Below, piece after piece: positions 40,359 through 45,347 of a stretch of 64,000 nucleotides of DNA; within the stretch, counting starts at the first letter, position 1; each line of letters begins with the position of its first letter. This stretch comes from Nitrosospira sp. GTDB taxonomy: Bacteria; Pseudomonadota; Gammaproteobacteria; Burkholderiales; Nitrosomonadaceae. Where the stretch lies: positions 1-64,000 of the forward strand of contig JAPLQS010000021.1 in the NCBI GenBank assembly GCA_026399575.1. Direction: 5' to 3'. The notes below the pieces were generated by a model, which saw only the letters and a list, made by a program, of their open reading frames with translations, was not told the DNA's origin and ran no database searches. The position numbers and the translations under genes were made by a program.

Positions 40359-40841
40359 TTATAGGGTTTTGCCGGGATTCTCGATCTTGTCTGTAGAGTC
40401 TGGTCCAACCTTGGCCTTGTTTTCCCGGTTGTTTCGCTGGCTAGGTGTTTCTGCTGGGGCGGCATAATCGCGCTTCGCGAGTTCTGCCGCCCTTTCCCGG
40501 TGAAAGGAGGCTTCCTTCAGGTTCTCCCTTGCGGCTCGATCATAACTGCGAATCATAGCCGAAGTATGCGCCTGGAAAGTTTGCCCATTTGTGCCATAGA
40601 GATAACTTCTGTCCTCATAATGCTGCATCAGTTTCCTTTGCTCCTCTGCTTTTACCTGCATTTCTTTAGCAGAATTTTCATATTGCTTTACCAAATTATC
40701 GTGGTCAGCATAGGTTCTGGCATTCTGTGCCGCCTTGCTAATATCGGTATTTTGCGCCTCGAAAGAACCCAGTTGCGCGCAGGAGGCCAATAGACTCAGC
40801 ATAGATAAAACTGCGTAGAGTTTTCTTACATTTGTATTCAC
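40359..40841 (-). CDS. Small lipoprotein, paralogue A of a tandem triplet
   Basis: 160 residues. The signal peptide ends with lipobox LLASC (CAQLGSFE), followed by a charged helical region rich in Lys, Glu and Gln that looks like a coiled coil. The C-terminal third is highly conserved between the three copies (FHRERAAELAKRDYA, then ETPSQRNNRENKAK). The start is a GTG at 40841, set by a strong GAGGAG site 5 nt upstream. No family was recognised. A has the same layout as B and C, but its upstream DNA lacks the box shared by those two. Confidence 0.75.
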   Translation of the reverse strand: MNTNVRKLYAVLSMLSLLASCAQLGSFEAQNTDISKAAQNARTYADHDNLVKQYENSAKEMQVKAEEQRKLMQHYEDRSYLYGTNGQTFQAHTSAMIRSYDRAARENLKEASFHRERAAELAKRDYAAPAETPSQRNNRENKAKVGPDSTDKIENPGKTL

Positions 40842-40937
40842 AAAGTCTCCTCTTGTGAATTTGGTTAAGTAGAGAGTTGGAAAGTAGCGTGGTGACAGCC
40901 GGCACTGTTGCCTAACTCAGTGTCCGCCCGCATCCTT

Positions 40938-41417
40938 TTATAAGGCTTGGCCGGGACTCCCAATCTTGTCTGTGGAGTCTGGTCCGACCTTGGCTTTGTT
41001 TTCCCGGTTGTTTCTCTGGCTGGGTGTTTCTGCCGGGGTGGCGTAATCGCGCTTCGCGAGTTCCGAGGCCATTTTCCGGTGAAAGGAGACCTTGTTTAAG
41101 GCTTCTTCTGCAGCTCTCTCATGCCTGTTTACCATGGCCCAAGTGTGCGCATGAAGATCCTGACCCTGCCTGCCAAGATATTGGCTATGATTGTCATACT
41201 CTTCGAGTAATCTTTTCTTTTCTTCTACCTTTGCCAATATTTCCTTGGCCTTAACCTCATAATCTTTAGCCAAATTATCATGGTAGCTACGGGTCATCCC
41301 GATGTTCTGTGTTTCACTGCGGGTATCAGCATCCTGTAATTCGACAGCACCTAGCTGCGCGCAGGGAACCAACAGACTGAGTACAGATAGAATTGTAAAA
41401 AGTTTTTTCGTTTTCAT
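40938..41417 (-). CDS. Small lipoprotein, paralogue B of a tandem triplet
   Basis: About 159 residues from the ATG at 41417 (MKTKKLFTILSVLSLLVPC). The lipobox LLVPC has Pro at -1, an unusual residue at that position, followed by AQLGAVELQ. The helical middle is the most diverged of the three (YEVKAKEILAKVEEKKRLLEEY), but the last 50 residues are almost identical to A. A 58-bp box about 47 bp upstream is 90% identical to one before C. The in-frame extension to 41453 would precede the signal peptide and is rejected. Confidence 0.75.
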   Translation of the reverse strand: MKTKKLFTILSVLSLLVPCAQLGAVELQDADTRSETQNIGMTRSYHDNLAKDYEVKAKEILAKVEEKKRLLEEYDNHSQYLGRQGQDLHAHTWAMVNRHERAAEEALNKVSFHRKMASELAKRDYATPAETPSQRNNRENKAKVGPDSTDKIGSPGQAL

Positions 41418-41463
41418 GATAGTAAAACTCCAATTAAAATGGCACGACATCATCGTAACCCAA

Positions 41464-41521
41464 TCAACACTGCGGGTTATATTGGGGAAACCTTGGTTTT
41501 ATACTAAGGGAAACCATTAGA
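41464..41521 (-). promoter_or_regulatory. Shared upstream box of lipoprotein B
   Basis: 58 bp, 52 identical to 42246-42303 upstream of lipoprotein C. The invariant core covers 22 bp and includes two GGTTTC(C/T)C half-sites on the minus strand, spaced about 20 bp. The gene-proximal edge is 47 bp from the start. It is probably a promoter plus operator. The adjacent NarL-type regulator (42326) is the natural candidate to bind it, which is inference. Confidence 0.5.
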
Positions 41522-41735
41522 CAGCGTCTTGCGTGCAGACATGATCGTGGCGGATATAAACCCGAATAATCTATCCGACGACAGCATGAGGAGGAAACCA
41601 ACTAAAAATCTAGCGTCGTCAGCCTGTGACTGCAGCACTGCACAAAAACAAGACTGCCGTGCCCAATAAACACTCAATCTGACGTGGTCAGACTACCCTG
41701 GCATCTTGTCTGATCCAGTGCGCGGTCACATTCCT

Positions 41736-42185
41736 TTATAAGGCGTTGCCAGAGTTTTCAATTGAGTCTGTGGGGCCTGATCTGGCCTTGGCCTTGTTTT
41801 CCCGGTTGCTTCGTTGGCTGGGTGTTTCTACTGGGGTGGCGTATTCGCGCTTCGCGAGTTCCGCCGCCCTTTCCCGGTGAAAGGATGCTTCCTTCATATT
41901 TTCCCTTGAGGCTTGCTCGTAATAGCGGATATTAGCCGAAGTATGCGCCTGGAAGTCTTGCCCCTGTCTGCCATAGAGATAGCTTTTGTCTTCATAAGAC
42001 TGCAGCAGCTTCCTTTGCTCCCCTGCCTTTATCTGCATTTCTTTGGCCGTATTTTCATATTGCTTCGCCAAATTATCGTGGTCGGCATAGGTTCTGGCAT
42101 TCTGTACTTCGAAAGCACCTAGTTGTGCGCAGGAAGCCAATAGACCCAACATAGAAAAAACCGCGAAAAGTTTTCCCGTTTTCAT
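41736..42185 (-). CDS. Small lipoprotein, paralogue C of a tandem triplet
   Basis: About 149 residues from the ATG at 42185 (MKTGKLFAVFSMLGLLASC). It is closest to A in the middle (QNARTYADHDNLAKQYENTAKEMQ and EEQRKL-type helix), with the conserved C-terminal ETPSQRSNRENKAK. It is probably anchored to the outer membrane, since no Asp follows the lipid Cys. It lies between paralogue B and the response-regulator gene and has its own upstream box. Confidence 0.75.
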   Translation of the reverse strand: MKTGKLFAVFSMLGLLASCAQLGAFEVQNARTYADHDNLAKQYENTAKEMQIKAGEQRKLLQSYEDKSYLYGRQGQDFQAHTSANIRYYEQASRENMKEASFHRERAAELAKREYATPVETPSQRSNRENKAKARSGPTDSIENSGNAL

Positions 42186-42245
42186 GATAGCGATGACTCC
42201 AAAAATAGAATGAGAAAAAATTGACACGGACTCATCCTAACTCAG

Positions 42246-42303
42246 TCAACACTACGAGGCATATTGGGGAAACCTTGGTTTTGTACTAAGAGAAACCATT
42301 AGA
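42246..42303 (-). promoter_or_regulatory. Shared upstream box of lipoprotein C
   Basis: 58-bp partner of the box at 41464-41521, with six differences, ending 61 bp before the start of lipoprotein C. It lies between the regulator stop (42326) and the lipoprotein. The segment CTTAGTACAAAACCAAGG with flanking GGTTTC repeats is conserved, whereas surrounding DNA is not. Confidence 0.5.
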
Positions 42304-42325
42304 AAGCAACACTTTCCTGATCTTC

Positions 42326-42982
42326 TTAATGCTCTTCCGAGATCCAGTGGGTGGCATAACGTATTAAATCGGCACCGTCTTTCAAATTCAGTTTGGTACG
42401 GATATTGAAGCGATGCGTTTCGATAGTTTTAATACTGCGATTAAGCAACTTGGCAATTTCCTGACTGCTATGTCCGGATCCAATCAGATGCAGCACTTCA
42501 AACTCACTGGGGGTCAAGCTGTTGATCAGCAGTTCGGGTTCTGAATGTCCGGTCACGACCCGGTTCAATAGCTTGGTGTGCATTTGCTTGCTCAGATAAA
42601 TGTTCCCCTTCAATACTTCGCGGATAGCGGCTACCAGCACTTCACCCGGCTCTTGTTTCATCACATAGCCGCGCGCCCCAGCCCGCAAAGCGCGTTCGGC
42701 ATAGACCGCTTCATCATGCATGGAGACAACGAGCACCGGCAACGCGGGAATCAACATGTGCATGCTTTTTATCAGATCAAGGCCGGAGCGGGTCTTGAGA
42801 GATACATCCACTAAAGCGATATCGGCATGGTGTTCCATCTTGAGTATGGCCAGCGCTTCATCACTATCACCCGCCTCGGCAAACACCTCCATATCAGGTT
42901 CGGCATTGATGAGCATTGCCATACCATGCCGCAACATGGCATGATCATCCACCAGCATCACTTGTGCTTTCAAGGCTGACAT
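42326..42982 (-). CDS. NarL/FixJ-family response regulator
   Basis: 218 residues. A receiver domain has Asp acidic residues at 11-12 and phospho-acceptor Asp59 (LVDVSLKTRSG). A LuxR-type HTH follows (LTPSEFEVLHLIGSGHSSQEIAKLLNRSIKTIETHRFNI, with the recognition helix in SIKTIETHR). It should be phosphorylated by the histidine kinase encoded 1 bp upstream. Possible targets are the three lipoprotein genes directly downstream. Confidence 0.92.
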   Translation of the reverse strand: MSALKAQVMLVDDHAMLRHGMAMLINAEPDMEVFAEAGDSDEALAILKMEHHADIALVDVSLKTRSGLDLIKSMHMLIPALPVLVVSMHDEAVYAERALRAGARGYVMKQEPGEVLVAAIREVLKGNIYLSKQMHTKLLNRVVTGHSEPELLINSLTPSEFEVLHLIGSGHSSQEIAKLLNRSIKTIETHRFNIRTKLNLKDGADLIRYATHWISEEH

Positions 42983-42983
42983 A

Positions 42984-45347
42984 CTAGACCATCCGCATTT
43001 CTAACCGCACTTCCGTACCACCTTCGGTGCGCGACAGGAATTCAAGTGTCGCGCCGATTTGCCTGGCGCGATGCTGCATGATTTTAATGCCCATCCCCGA
43101 CCCGTGCTTTGTGTCAACACCAGCAAAGCCGGTGCCGTTGTCGCATATCGACAGACGGAGCATTCCTTCCTCGGAGGCCAGTGAAATTGTGAGGTGTTGC
43201 GCACCAGCATGACGTATTGCATTGTTGACAGCCTCCTGGACAATCCGATAAAGATTAAGCGCAATATTATTATCGTCGATGAGGACTTCATTTTTGCACA
43301 CAAAATCGCAAATAATTTTATAGGTGACTGCGATTCTCGATGCAAATTCCTGCAGCGTGGCTATCAGGCCGTTGGTCTCCAGTTCAAACGGAAGCAGCCC
43401 CTGCGCGAGCTGCTTGCATTGCATCACGGCGATCTGTGCTTGTGTCGCAATGGAAGCAGCGACTGTTGCCGCATCTACGCTTCCCAAATCAGCTATTTTT
43501 TTCTCCAGCGCTTTGGCTTGATAGCCGATCGCCGCAATCTGTTGGCCAAGATTGTCGTGCAACTCCTGTCCGATCAAACGCTGGTGTTCTTCCGCTATAG
43601 AAACCAGTGCCTGCTCCAAACGTTTGCGTTCAAGCCACCCCTCCAGATCACTCGCAATGGCGTCGATGAGTCTCTGCTCTTCCAGCACCAGGAATGGCTT
43701 GTCTTCCGGATAGAACACGCGCAATTGGCCGCAGACCCTGCCGTTGACACTAATGTTCGATTGCAACTCGTGTGTAAATCCCTTGCCATGATTCCCGGAG
43801 GTGAATCGCCTGCCATCGAGTTCGATCACGGCCGTGGCAATCTCCGGGAACTGCATTGCGGGTATCAGATGCTGAAAAATCTGCTGACAAACACTATCCA
43901 CCGACAATTCCGACCCCATGCCTCGACGAATCTCGTAGAGGCAGGTGATCTCCTTCAAACGCTCGCGCAGCACTTCGTCGATCTGCTTGCGCTCAAGCCA
44001 CCTCTCCAGATCACTTGCAATGGCATCGATGAGTCGCTGCTCTTCCAGTGCCAGGAATGGCTTGTCTTCAGGATAGAACACGCGCAATTGGCCGCAGACC
44101 CTGCCGTTGACACTAATGTTCGACTGCAATTCGTGTGTAAGACTCTGGCCATGATTCCCGGAGGTGAATCGCCTGCCATCGAGTTCGATCACGGCAGTGG
44201 CAATCTCCGGGAACTGCATTGCGGGTATCAGATGCTGAAAAATCTGCTGGCAGGCATTATCCACCGACAACTCCGGCCCCATGCCTCGACGAATCTCGTA
44301 GAGGCAGGTGATCTCCTTCAAACGCTCGCGCAGTGCCAGTTCCTTGTGGTGCAGTTCCGCAGAAAACTGCTCGGCGCTTTCCTTGGCATCCCGTGCTTCC
44401 TGCTCCGATCTGATCAGTTTGCGTACCAGCCAGTACAACAGCAGTATCTCGGCGATTATCAGTCCAATGAGATACAGAACGATAATTTTTAACTGCTCAG
44501 TCACCGGCTTGAACAGTTCTTCCTCGTCCAGCTTGAGCACCATACCGAGGCCAAATGCACCCAGCGGCGCGTATGCCGCAATTACCGGCACCTGGCGGTA
44601 ATCTTTCACGGTTGTAACGCCGCTTTTCCCTTCCAGCACATAATTCATTGGCAGTGGCACGCCCCCGACCACGCGCGGCAAATGCTGGAATTTCACACCA
44701 CCAAGCTGGCTCAAAAGGCATGCCATCCCTTGTCCGTCATCTCCTGGCGGCGCGCACAGCATGAATTCGCCGGTTTTACCGATCTCCCTTATTTTACTGA
44801 AGCTGCGGGTTAGTTGCGGCAGGTCTTTTTCCGTCGTGATGCTGCCAATACGGCGTCCGTCCTGATCCAGCACGCCCTCAGTAGTACGCAGGATGAACTG
44901 CCCGTCCCACAACAGGGATGTGTTGTTGAGGCTAAGCAGTGGCAGCGACGGAGCCTGGTTCGTGGAAAAGCGGCCCACTTGCGCCAATTTATTGCCGCGC
45001 ATATCGAAAACAGATGCCGCCGTGAAGCCGACCCGCAGCAATGAATTGATGTTCAGTTCCAGGTCATATAATGCGCTGGTGTTATCCGGTTGCGCATTGA
45101 GCTGCTGCATGGATTGAACCAGGAAAGGCCGGTTGACCACCGCGCGCGTGTCCGCCAGACCCTCTTCGATCTGGCTCTCAAACAGGCGTGCCTTGCCCTG
45201 CAAGGCTACGTCGAGGCCCCTGCCGAGAGTGGATTCAATCTGTTGCCGCATCACGCCATAGACCGCGATGCCTGTCACCAAGGTCAATCCCACCAGCAGC
45301 AAGCCGCCGATAATGCTGATCTTGCGATCATCACGTATTAGTAGCAA
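42984..45347 (-). CDS. NarX-like sensor histidine kinase with a tandem-duplicated GAF-like domain
   Basis: 787 residues. TM1 lies at about 12-30, then a periplasmic dCACHE-like sensor and TM2 at about 285-305. Two nearly identical 121-residue blocks (LRERLKEITCLYEIRRGMG to LERK) follow. The HisKA_3 domain has the phospho-acceptor His in IGQELHDNLGQQI, and HATPase_c has NAIRHAGAQ, DNGTGF and GSGMGIKIM. The start is a TTG at 45347, placed by AAGGAG 7 nt upstream; no in-frame ATG exists before the TM helix. It is coupled to the response regulator with a 1-bp gap. The signal is unknown. Confidence 0.88.
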   Translation of the reverse strand: MLLIRDDRKISIIGGLLLVGLTLVTGIAVYGVMRQQIESTLGRGLDVALQGKARLFESQIEEGLADTRAVVNRPFLVQSMQQLNAQPDNTSALYDLELNINSLLRVGFTAASVFDMRGNKLAQVGRFSTNQAPSLPLLSLNNTSLLWDGQFILRTTEGVLDQDGRRIGSITTEKDLPQLTRSFSKIREIGKTGEFMLCAPPGDDGQGMACLLSQLGGVKFQHLPRVVGGVPLPMNYVLEGKSGVTTVKDYRQVPVIAAYAPLGAFGLGMVLKLDEEELFKPVTEQLKIIVLYLIGLIIAEILLLYWLVRKLIRSEQEARDAKESAEQFSAELHHKELALRERLKEITCLYEIRRGMGPELSVDNACQQIFQHLIPAMQFPEIATAVIELDGRRFTSGNHGQSLTHELQSNISVNGRVCGQLRVFYPEDKPFLALEEQRLIDAIASDLERWLERKQIDEVLRERLKEITCLYEIRRGMGSELSVDSVCQQIFQHLIPAMQFPEIATAVIELDGRRFTSGNHGKGFTHELQSNISVNGRVCGQLRVFYPEDKPFLVLEEQRLIDAIASDLEGWLERKRLEQALVSIAEEHQRLIGQELHDNLGQQIAAIGYQAKALEKKIADLGSVDAATVAASIATQAQIAVMQCKQLAQGLLPFELETNGLIATLQEFASRIAVTYKIICDFVCKNEVLIDDNNIALNLYRIVQEAVNNAIRHAGAQHLTISLASEEGMLRLSICDNGTGFAGVDTKHGSGMGIKIMQHRARQIGATLEFLSRTEGGTEVRLEMRMV
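43608..44333 (-). repeat. In-frame 363-bp tandem duplication within the sensor kinase
   Basis: Copy 1 is 44333-43971 and copy 2 is 43970-43608. Each is exactly 121 codons. The proteins differ at few positions (for example MGPELSVDNAC against MGSELSVDSVC), so the duplication is recent or kept alike by conversion. Each unit begins LRERLKEITCLYEIRRGMG and ends near LERK. Confidence 0.9.

Follow-up and report, generated by a model that had tools for sequence, protein, structure and literature searches.

The locus and its genes

The window, by which is meant the whole stretch of 64,000 nucleotides of Nitrosospira sp. that was analysed, carries on its minus strand a sensor kinase gene, a gene for a NarL-type response regulator (RR) and then three further genes, A, B and C, in that order. 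The three tandem paralogues that the original prediction placed beside a NarL-type regulator and a sensor kinase are real, being three minus-strand open reading frames directly 3′ of both, and sequence comparison assigns A, B and C to one protein family. The genes and the one terminator-like feature are as follows.

42984–45347, minus strand: sensor kinase (TTG start as listed), in which two hydrophobic segments (by eye) flank a single predicted periplasmic loop; it also has two GAF-fold modules in tandem, HisKA_3 and HATPase_c
42326–42982, minus strand: response regulator of the NarL/FixJ type, Response_reg plus GerE, the proposed binder of the upstream element
41736–42185, minus strand: gene A (ATG start), with a canonical lipobox LLASC, a predicted two-helix hairpin and a disordered charged tail
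41675–41695, minus strand: terminator-like hairpin 3′ of gene A, a pattern match only
40938–41417, minus strand: gene B (ATG start), of the same family as A and C, with a non-canonical lipobox LLVPC
40359–40841, minus strand: gene C (GTG start), with a canonical lipobox LLASC and without an upstream element of its own

No terminator-like site is listed on the minus strand between B and C, and gene C is probably read through from B, depending on the element upstream of B. The genome also contains a fourth, motif-less copy of the family on another contig (L221:4195-5610), which lies some 120 bp from a cupredoxin gene and a DUF411 gene. AMO (PF02461) was found in two of the nine genomes of the window's genus and was not found in the window's own assembly; it is therefore to relatives that the description ‘ammonia oxidiser’ applies, and for the genome of the window it is unproven.

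The types of the two signalling proteins follow from their domains. The RR matches Response_reg at 79.9 bits (cut-off 30.2) and GerE at 50.9 bits (cut-off 23.5), as a NarL/FixJ-type regulator does, and the kinase matches HisKA_3 at 28.5 bits (cut-off 24) and HATPase_c at 50.7 bits (cut-off 26.4), as a NarX-type kinase does. In terms of NCBIfam families, membership of the Nar system proper is not indicated, the scores being 108 bits for NarL (cut-off 250), 98 for NarQ (553) and 70 for NarX (578), with the NarP cut-off likewise far from reached. Nor does the RR reach the NCBIfam cut-off for GacA/UvrY (101 against 280).

A conserved element upstream of genes A and B

Directly upstream of genes A and B lies an element of about 44 bp, which the original prediction had overlooked. 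It is made up of two palindromes, with GGTTTCCC repeated 23 bp apart; more fully, the palindromes measure 17 bp and 12 bp, and a direct repeat of 10 bp has that 23-bp spacing. In the window the 18-base core has two matches, against 0.03 expected by chance. The sub-sites given here were read off the sequence.

42243–42305, minus strand: element upstream of gene A, a putative operator/promoter (R1 match, E 3.8e-17)
42286–42302, minus strand: palindrome 1 of the gene A element, with the second site at about 42263–42281
42234–42239, minus strand: candidate −10 hexamer TAGGAT of gene A, suggested by a conserved TAnGAt block (72 distinct sites)
41461–41523, minus strand: element upstream of genes B–C (R1 match, E 1.5e-17)
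41504–41520, minus strand: palindrome 1 of the B–C element, with the second site at about 41481–41499

Over the approximately 44 bp, 72 distinct sites give an information content of 1.2–1.7 bits per base, compared with 0.02–0.10 upstream; 3′ of the element it drops, and a weaker TTGA...TAnGAt block follows. Palindrome 1 has the consensus CTAAkGG-TTT-CCCTTAG, and 23 bp downstream of it is a degenerate second site, AAACC-AG-GGTTTCCC. In two sites of group g3 (L132:1368-1431 and L134:1367-1430) palindrome 1 has an inverted centre, with GGAAACC for GGTTTCC between unchanged arms, as would be expected for a dimer site.

The promoter of gene A is without a good −35, and the element occupies the position where a −35 would be expected. 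If TAGGAT is taken as the −10, the second site would fall roughly 43–48 bp before the start of transcription. Class II activators bind roughly 43–48 bp upstream of the start, and the RR is plausibly placed at this class II position, as in NarL-type systems. A scan for an ordinary sigma-70 promoter at the element gave no convincing candidate. A reading of the palindrome as an RNA hairpin was also considered, and pair covariation was not above that of shuffles, such that the element is treated here as a DNA site; its near-fixed distance before genes of one family argues against a mobile element, and that reading was rejected.

Distribution of the element and the regulator

Of 125 Nitrosomonadaceae genomes, 95 have an orthologue of the RR. 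In a hand-made table, the negatives of which were obtained partly by subtraction, the element (E ≤ 1e-4) is found in 86 of the 95 genomes with the RR and in none of the 30 without it (Fisher 3e-21, genomes counted as independent), leaving nine with the RR and no element at this threshold. The same is seen within g3 (60/69 with the RR, 0/16 without) and within the window's genus (3/3 and 0/6, respectively). A second table, made in the same way, shows both RR and protein family in 93 genomes, the RR only in two (G058 and G061, which are without a family gene), the family only in seven and neither in 23, with G026 scored as having the RR on the basis of a fragment and G120 (42% identical) scored as lacking it. 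No element was found in the seven genomes that have the family and not the RR.

At 20 of 30 RR loci a family gene with an element lies directly downstream; in the other ten the RR is unlinked, and the genomes concerned contain elements elsewhere. These observations bear on the possibility that some other regulator binds the element, the two-component system being a passive neighbour inherited with the lipoprotein locus. The linkage of RR and element in 20 of the 30 loci could indeed be inheritance as one block, but the ten unlinked loci, in genomes that still have elements, and the lack of any element in genomes with the family and without the RR make such an explanation improbable. It is further opposed by a genome from outside the Nitrosomonadaceae (G397) which has the RR and an element, no family gene and a different kinase.

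In that genome the RR is 82% identical and the kinase is PAS-based. The element copy (L265:8064-8113) lies directly 3′ of the RR, before a CheB/CheR-PAS-GGDEF-EAL gene, and carries AAA for TTT at the centre of palindrome 1; its match has an E of 4.9e-5 in 62 kb and is weak genome-wide, not being reported at E ≤ 0.001. As a single case, it suggests that element and RR are separable both from the protein family and from the GAF-type kinase. Across 399 genomes of the order, family genes occur in 23, of which 10 are Nitrosomonadaceae, and elements in 10, with one weak hit outside the Nitrosomonadaceae.

Taken on this comparative evidence, the proposal that the two-component system controls these genes is well supported, with a shared putative operator as the route, since the element tracks the RR in 86 of 95 genomes against 0 of 30. 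The original prediction had held that homologues without a two-component neighbour would speak against such control. Homologues of this kind do exist, most copies being scattered; control is not thereby refuted, because many of them carry the same element.

A putative dispersed regulon

With a sequence-only model of the element, 85 sites were found at E ≤ 0.005 in 26 chosen genomes, weaker rows being excluded. For 66 of them a family gene follows 38–211 bp downstream in the same orientation, and these sites are scattered over the chromosome; the remaining 19 have no profile match downstream, which is explained for some and not for several. The association holds in both directions; the loci counted overlap from one genome to another, and duplicates were removed on the basis of the upstream sequence alone. 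When loci were fetched by the DNA pattern and nothing else, a family open reading frame lay within 260 bp downstream of the site in 27 of 30, the others being L045, scored as a miss (its site has 4 differences from the consensus used) though a family frame is listed downstream, L062, without an intact family frame right downstream, and L067, which stops at a contig edge. From gene to element, the element is present for 34 of 38 family frames in protein-fetched loci, and the four exceptions are second or third genes of tandems. A reversed control pattern gave no matches in at least 120 genomes.

The family reaches about two dozen copies per genome, and by no means all of these belong to the regulon. 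In 14 genomes with both RR and family the element is directly upstream of 64 of 121 family genes, 57 being without it; in five genomes with the family and without the RR it is found at none of 15.

Some sites precede genes of other kinds. A lipoprotein of 49–53 aa stands downstream in G025 (twice), G044, G090 and G092, a P-II-like gene in the same four genomes (P-II by Pfam for G025) and a BBP2 porin in G025, G090 and G092. In G106 the gene downstream is an RR in truncated form, and in G100 it is a family member that has decayed; for the sites in G075 and G058 and for a truncated copy in G044 there is no clear gene. One island (L190, G025:C1:3536500-3551000) holds five elements within about 11 kb, together with two tiny lipoproteins, a P-II-like gene, a family lipoprotein and a BBP2 porin.

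It might be argued from such genes that the signal is the status of inorganic carbon or nitrogen and not metals, with the envelope proteins and the porin adjusting uptake. Beyond the P-II-like genes after the element in four g3 genomes, the RR loci of G023 and G035 (L267 and L268), without an adjoining family gene, lie near a SulP-type permease gene and a universal-stress gene, and G035 has a half-element upstream of the SulP gene. This half-site, however, is weak (E 0.0039 in 62 kb), and in the window's genome, which has two element sites only, neither is tied to P-II or SulP. A carbon or nitrogen signal is accordingly regarded as rather unlikely.

The kinase and its signal

Pfam gives no GAF hit in the kinase, and the GAF fold was recognised instead from a model of the module (pLDDT 87.3), which matches DosP (E 4.0e-4) and the NLH1 GAF domain of A. 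aeolicus (E 8.9e-4). The two modules of the window's kinase (43608–44345) are 89% identical as protein and 94% as DNA, and each of 14 kinases examined has between one and three. This range in relatives, together with the near-identical copies, suggests that the number of modules changes by recombination. An N-terminal periplasmic region is present in 10 of the 14 kinases and absent from all four of g4, a group labelled Nitrosospira-type since the named loci L037–L039 match g4 contigs (g3 is probably Nitrosomonas). Sensing that is common to all 14 kinases is thus likelier to be cytoplasmic, because all of them have the GAF module and the four g4 kinases lack the periplasmic region.

In this regard the suggestion in the original prediction, that the system responds to envelope stress, does not fare well. 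On such a reading the periplasmic domain of the kinase would detect envelope damage, and the task of the lipoproteins would be to repair or protect the envelope. Export of the products, the predicted periplasmic region of the window's kinase and the regulon-like behaviour of the BBP2 porin and the tiny lipoprotein would fit such a role. Against it, the g4 kinases (four of four loci) lack the N-terminal domain and yet element and genes persist, the GAF module lies outside that domain, and no known envelope-stress gene is found behind any element. The NCBIfam cut-offs of the envelope-stress families LiaS (62.8 against 450 bits) and RcsB (64.2 against 235) are also far off. Envelope stress is therefore judged a very improbable signal.

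The predicted hairpin proteins

The proteins encoded by A, B and C are without close counterparts in reference collections. None has a Pfam match over the cut-off, A and C have no match in PHROGs, a search of the PDB by sequence gave no significant match (best E 0.062, to the adhesin FadA), and gene A scores 15 bits against the cut-off of 43 for the Lpp/OprI family NF040598. No paper on the protein family or the element was found in the literature, of which coverage was partial; the matching passages of a proteomics study of three ammonia oxidisers contain nothing on the hairpin family (PMC5960693).

The model of protein A has helices at residues 33–66 and 74–115, forming an antiparallel hairpin, followed by a disordered tail (mean pLDDT 74, with hairpin blocks at about 91–98). 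When the hairpin was searched by fold, unrelated hairpins came out highest (WXG100 proteins, ESCRT-III, receptors and FadA), the WXG100/ESAT-6-like and FadA-like ones being mixed with the others at Z 9–11.8 and a Foldseek E of about 1. Such likeness is uninformative on function, because the two-helix hairpin is a common arrangement.

Among motif-bearing members, with sequences that have less than 250 bp upstream excluded from all residue counts, His36 is present in 90 of 91, His103 in 89 of 90 and His81 in 80 of 91. His57 is found in 16 of 16 other-family relatives, 12 of 47 motif-less Nitrosomonadaceae copies and 1 of 90 motif-bearing members, and Cys82 in 14 of 15, 8 of 46 and 0 of 91, respectively. 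The other-family relatives thus hold a full set of ligand-like His and Cys residues, part of which the motif-bearing members have lost, with the motif-less copies intermediate. Residue arithmetic would place position 36 about opposite 103, and 57 about opposite 81.

Copper-type genes are found in 16 of 41 stretches fetched around motif-less or other-family copies and in none of the other 25, where the 16 are a hand-made union of clusters with Pfam run on one representative each, several stretches are orthologous, and a family frame is present at E ≤ 1e-4 in only 28 of the 41. The neighbours are of the CusB, CusA, OEP, CopA-type ATPase, cupredoxin and DUF411 types, with CusF-type genes also near distant relatives. 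These copper links belong to the motif-less relatives and not to members of the regulon. Metal binding is then the leading guess for the function of the hairpins, based on the conservation of His and Cys and on the copper neighbourhood of their motif-less relatives.

The hairpins could instead be structural or adhesive surface proteins, of a coat, a matrix or a cell–cell contact, diversified by recombination. Their antiparallel form and weak likeness to FadA (sequence E 0.062, fold Z about 9) are compatible with this, as are the multiple copies, the conversion of tails and the chimera described below, and the varied types of signal peptide and lipobox. The FadA-like matches, however, are within the range of any helical hairpin, and a surface role does not account for the two nearly invariant histidines or for the relatives in copper loci; it is a serious possibility, albeit the less favoured one.

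Lipoboxes and probable gene conversion

To call all three products small lipoproteins, as the original prediction did, is too strong. By eye, A and C have the canonical lipobox LLASC, in keeping with the description; B has LLVPC, with Pro before the Cys, which is not canonical. A chimeric protein in a related genome (G121) has Ser where the lipobox Cys would be, and some regulon members elsewhere have, by eye, an ordinary-looking signal peptide in place of a lipobox. In other words, the lipoprotein label fits, as far as sequence goes, part of the family only.

The prediction further held that the 3′ ends are much more alike than the middle parts, which is correct for the pairs that include B and not for A–C. 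B and C share the tail ETPSQRNNRENKAK without a difference, and A differs at one position (ETPSQRSNRENKAK). DNA identities in the middle, the tail and the last segment are, respectively, 58%, 87% and 84% for B–C, 60%, 87% and 69% for A–B, and 84%, 91% and 65% for A–C. The last segment of C agrees with B at 43 of 51 positions, against 38 of 51 for its G121 orthologue and 37 of 51 for its G119 orthologue; the middle of C is 86% and 84% identical to these orthologues, respectively, against 58% to B. The two orthologues have in common a two-residue insertion that C lacks. G121 has two genes only, the first being a chimera whose signal region is of the A type (85% identical to A and 74% to B) and whose body is of the B type (91% to B). 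Gene conversion of the tails, as originally proposed, thus gains support from the B-like last segment of C next to its orthologous middle and from the G121 chimera; it appears supported and not proven, because the counts of identical codons are small.

Proposed mechanism

The explanation that we consider likely is that the kinase and the RR activate a lineage-specific regulon through the approximately 44-bp element, and that the exported hairpins most likely bind or buffer metal. Phosphorylated RR would bind the element as dimers, at palindrome 1 and at the degenerate second site. The element sits over the would-be −35 and before a TAGGAT-like candidate −10, and the RR would activate rather than repress. 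The regulon at the window would consist of gene A and the pair B–C; in other Nitrosomonadaceae it would take in dispersed paralogues of the hairpin family, with, in g3, the lipoprotein of about 50 aa, the BBP2-type porin and the P-II-like protein as additions. Its products would be two-helix hairpins that are exported, carry a flexible charged tail and are either held by a lipid anchor or free in the periplasm. Small periplasmic proteins of copper-efflux loci may be their ancestors or may have a common origin with them; the hairpins would have retained His36 and His103 and lost His57 and Cys82. At the envelope they would most likely bind a metal, for instance copper, or buffer it.

A more far-reaching version is put forward tentatively, as rather less probable than not by a wide measure. 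According to it a portable module of RR and 44-bp double-palindrome element captured an ancestral hairpin of a copper locus in Nitrosomonadaceae. The hairpin then radiated into exported His-pair proteins, dispersed as a regulon, by which copper-dependent ammonia oxidisers would buffer or deliver metal at their envelope, and in G397 the same module was rewired to a c-di-GMP/chemotaxis-type gene.

Significance and comparison with known systems

From this work an uncharacterised RR of ammonia-oxidising bacteria gains a candidate operator and a list of targets in dozens of genomes, and an unannotated family of exported proteins is named. Should the metal reading be true, it opens the matter of how copper-dependent nitrifiers handle metal at the envelope. 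The RR–element pair outside the Nitrosomonadaceae, moreover, offers a possible natural case of a regulator kept with its site as the regulated genes change.

The nearest comparison is with the NarX/NarQ–NarL systems, which likewise combine a HisKA_3 kinase with a GerE regulator and a palindromic target with a central spacer. The operator here is different, however, and the regulon is one expanded protein family and not a set of respiratory genes. GacA/UvrY and RcsB boxes have TAAG-type half-sites, and palindrome 1, with TAAG...CTTA, resembles the GacA box; the RR nonetheless falls under the cut-offs of both GacA/UvrY (101 against 280 bits) and RcsB (64 against 235), and a second site lies 23 bp away. 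As for the Cus and Cop proteins, distant relatives of the hairpin family sit near CusA-, CusB-, CusF- and CopA-type genes. CusF itself has a beta-barrel fold, whereas the present family is predicted as an all-helical hairpin and has no sequence match to CusF. Finally, the Lpp/OprI lipoproteins are similarly small and helical, with a signal peptide and a lipobox, but the proteins described here are predicted to form an antiparallel hairpin, and gene A scores well under the NF040598 cut-off (15 against 43 bits).
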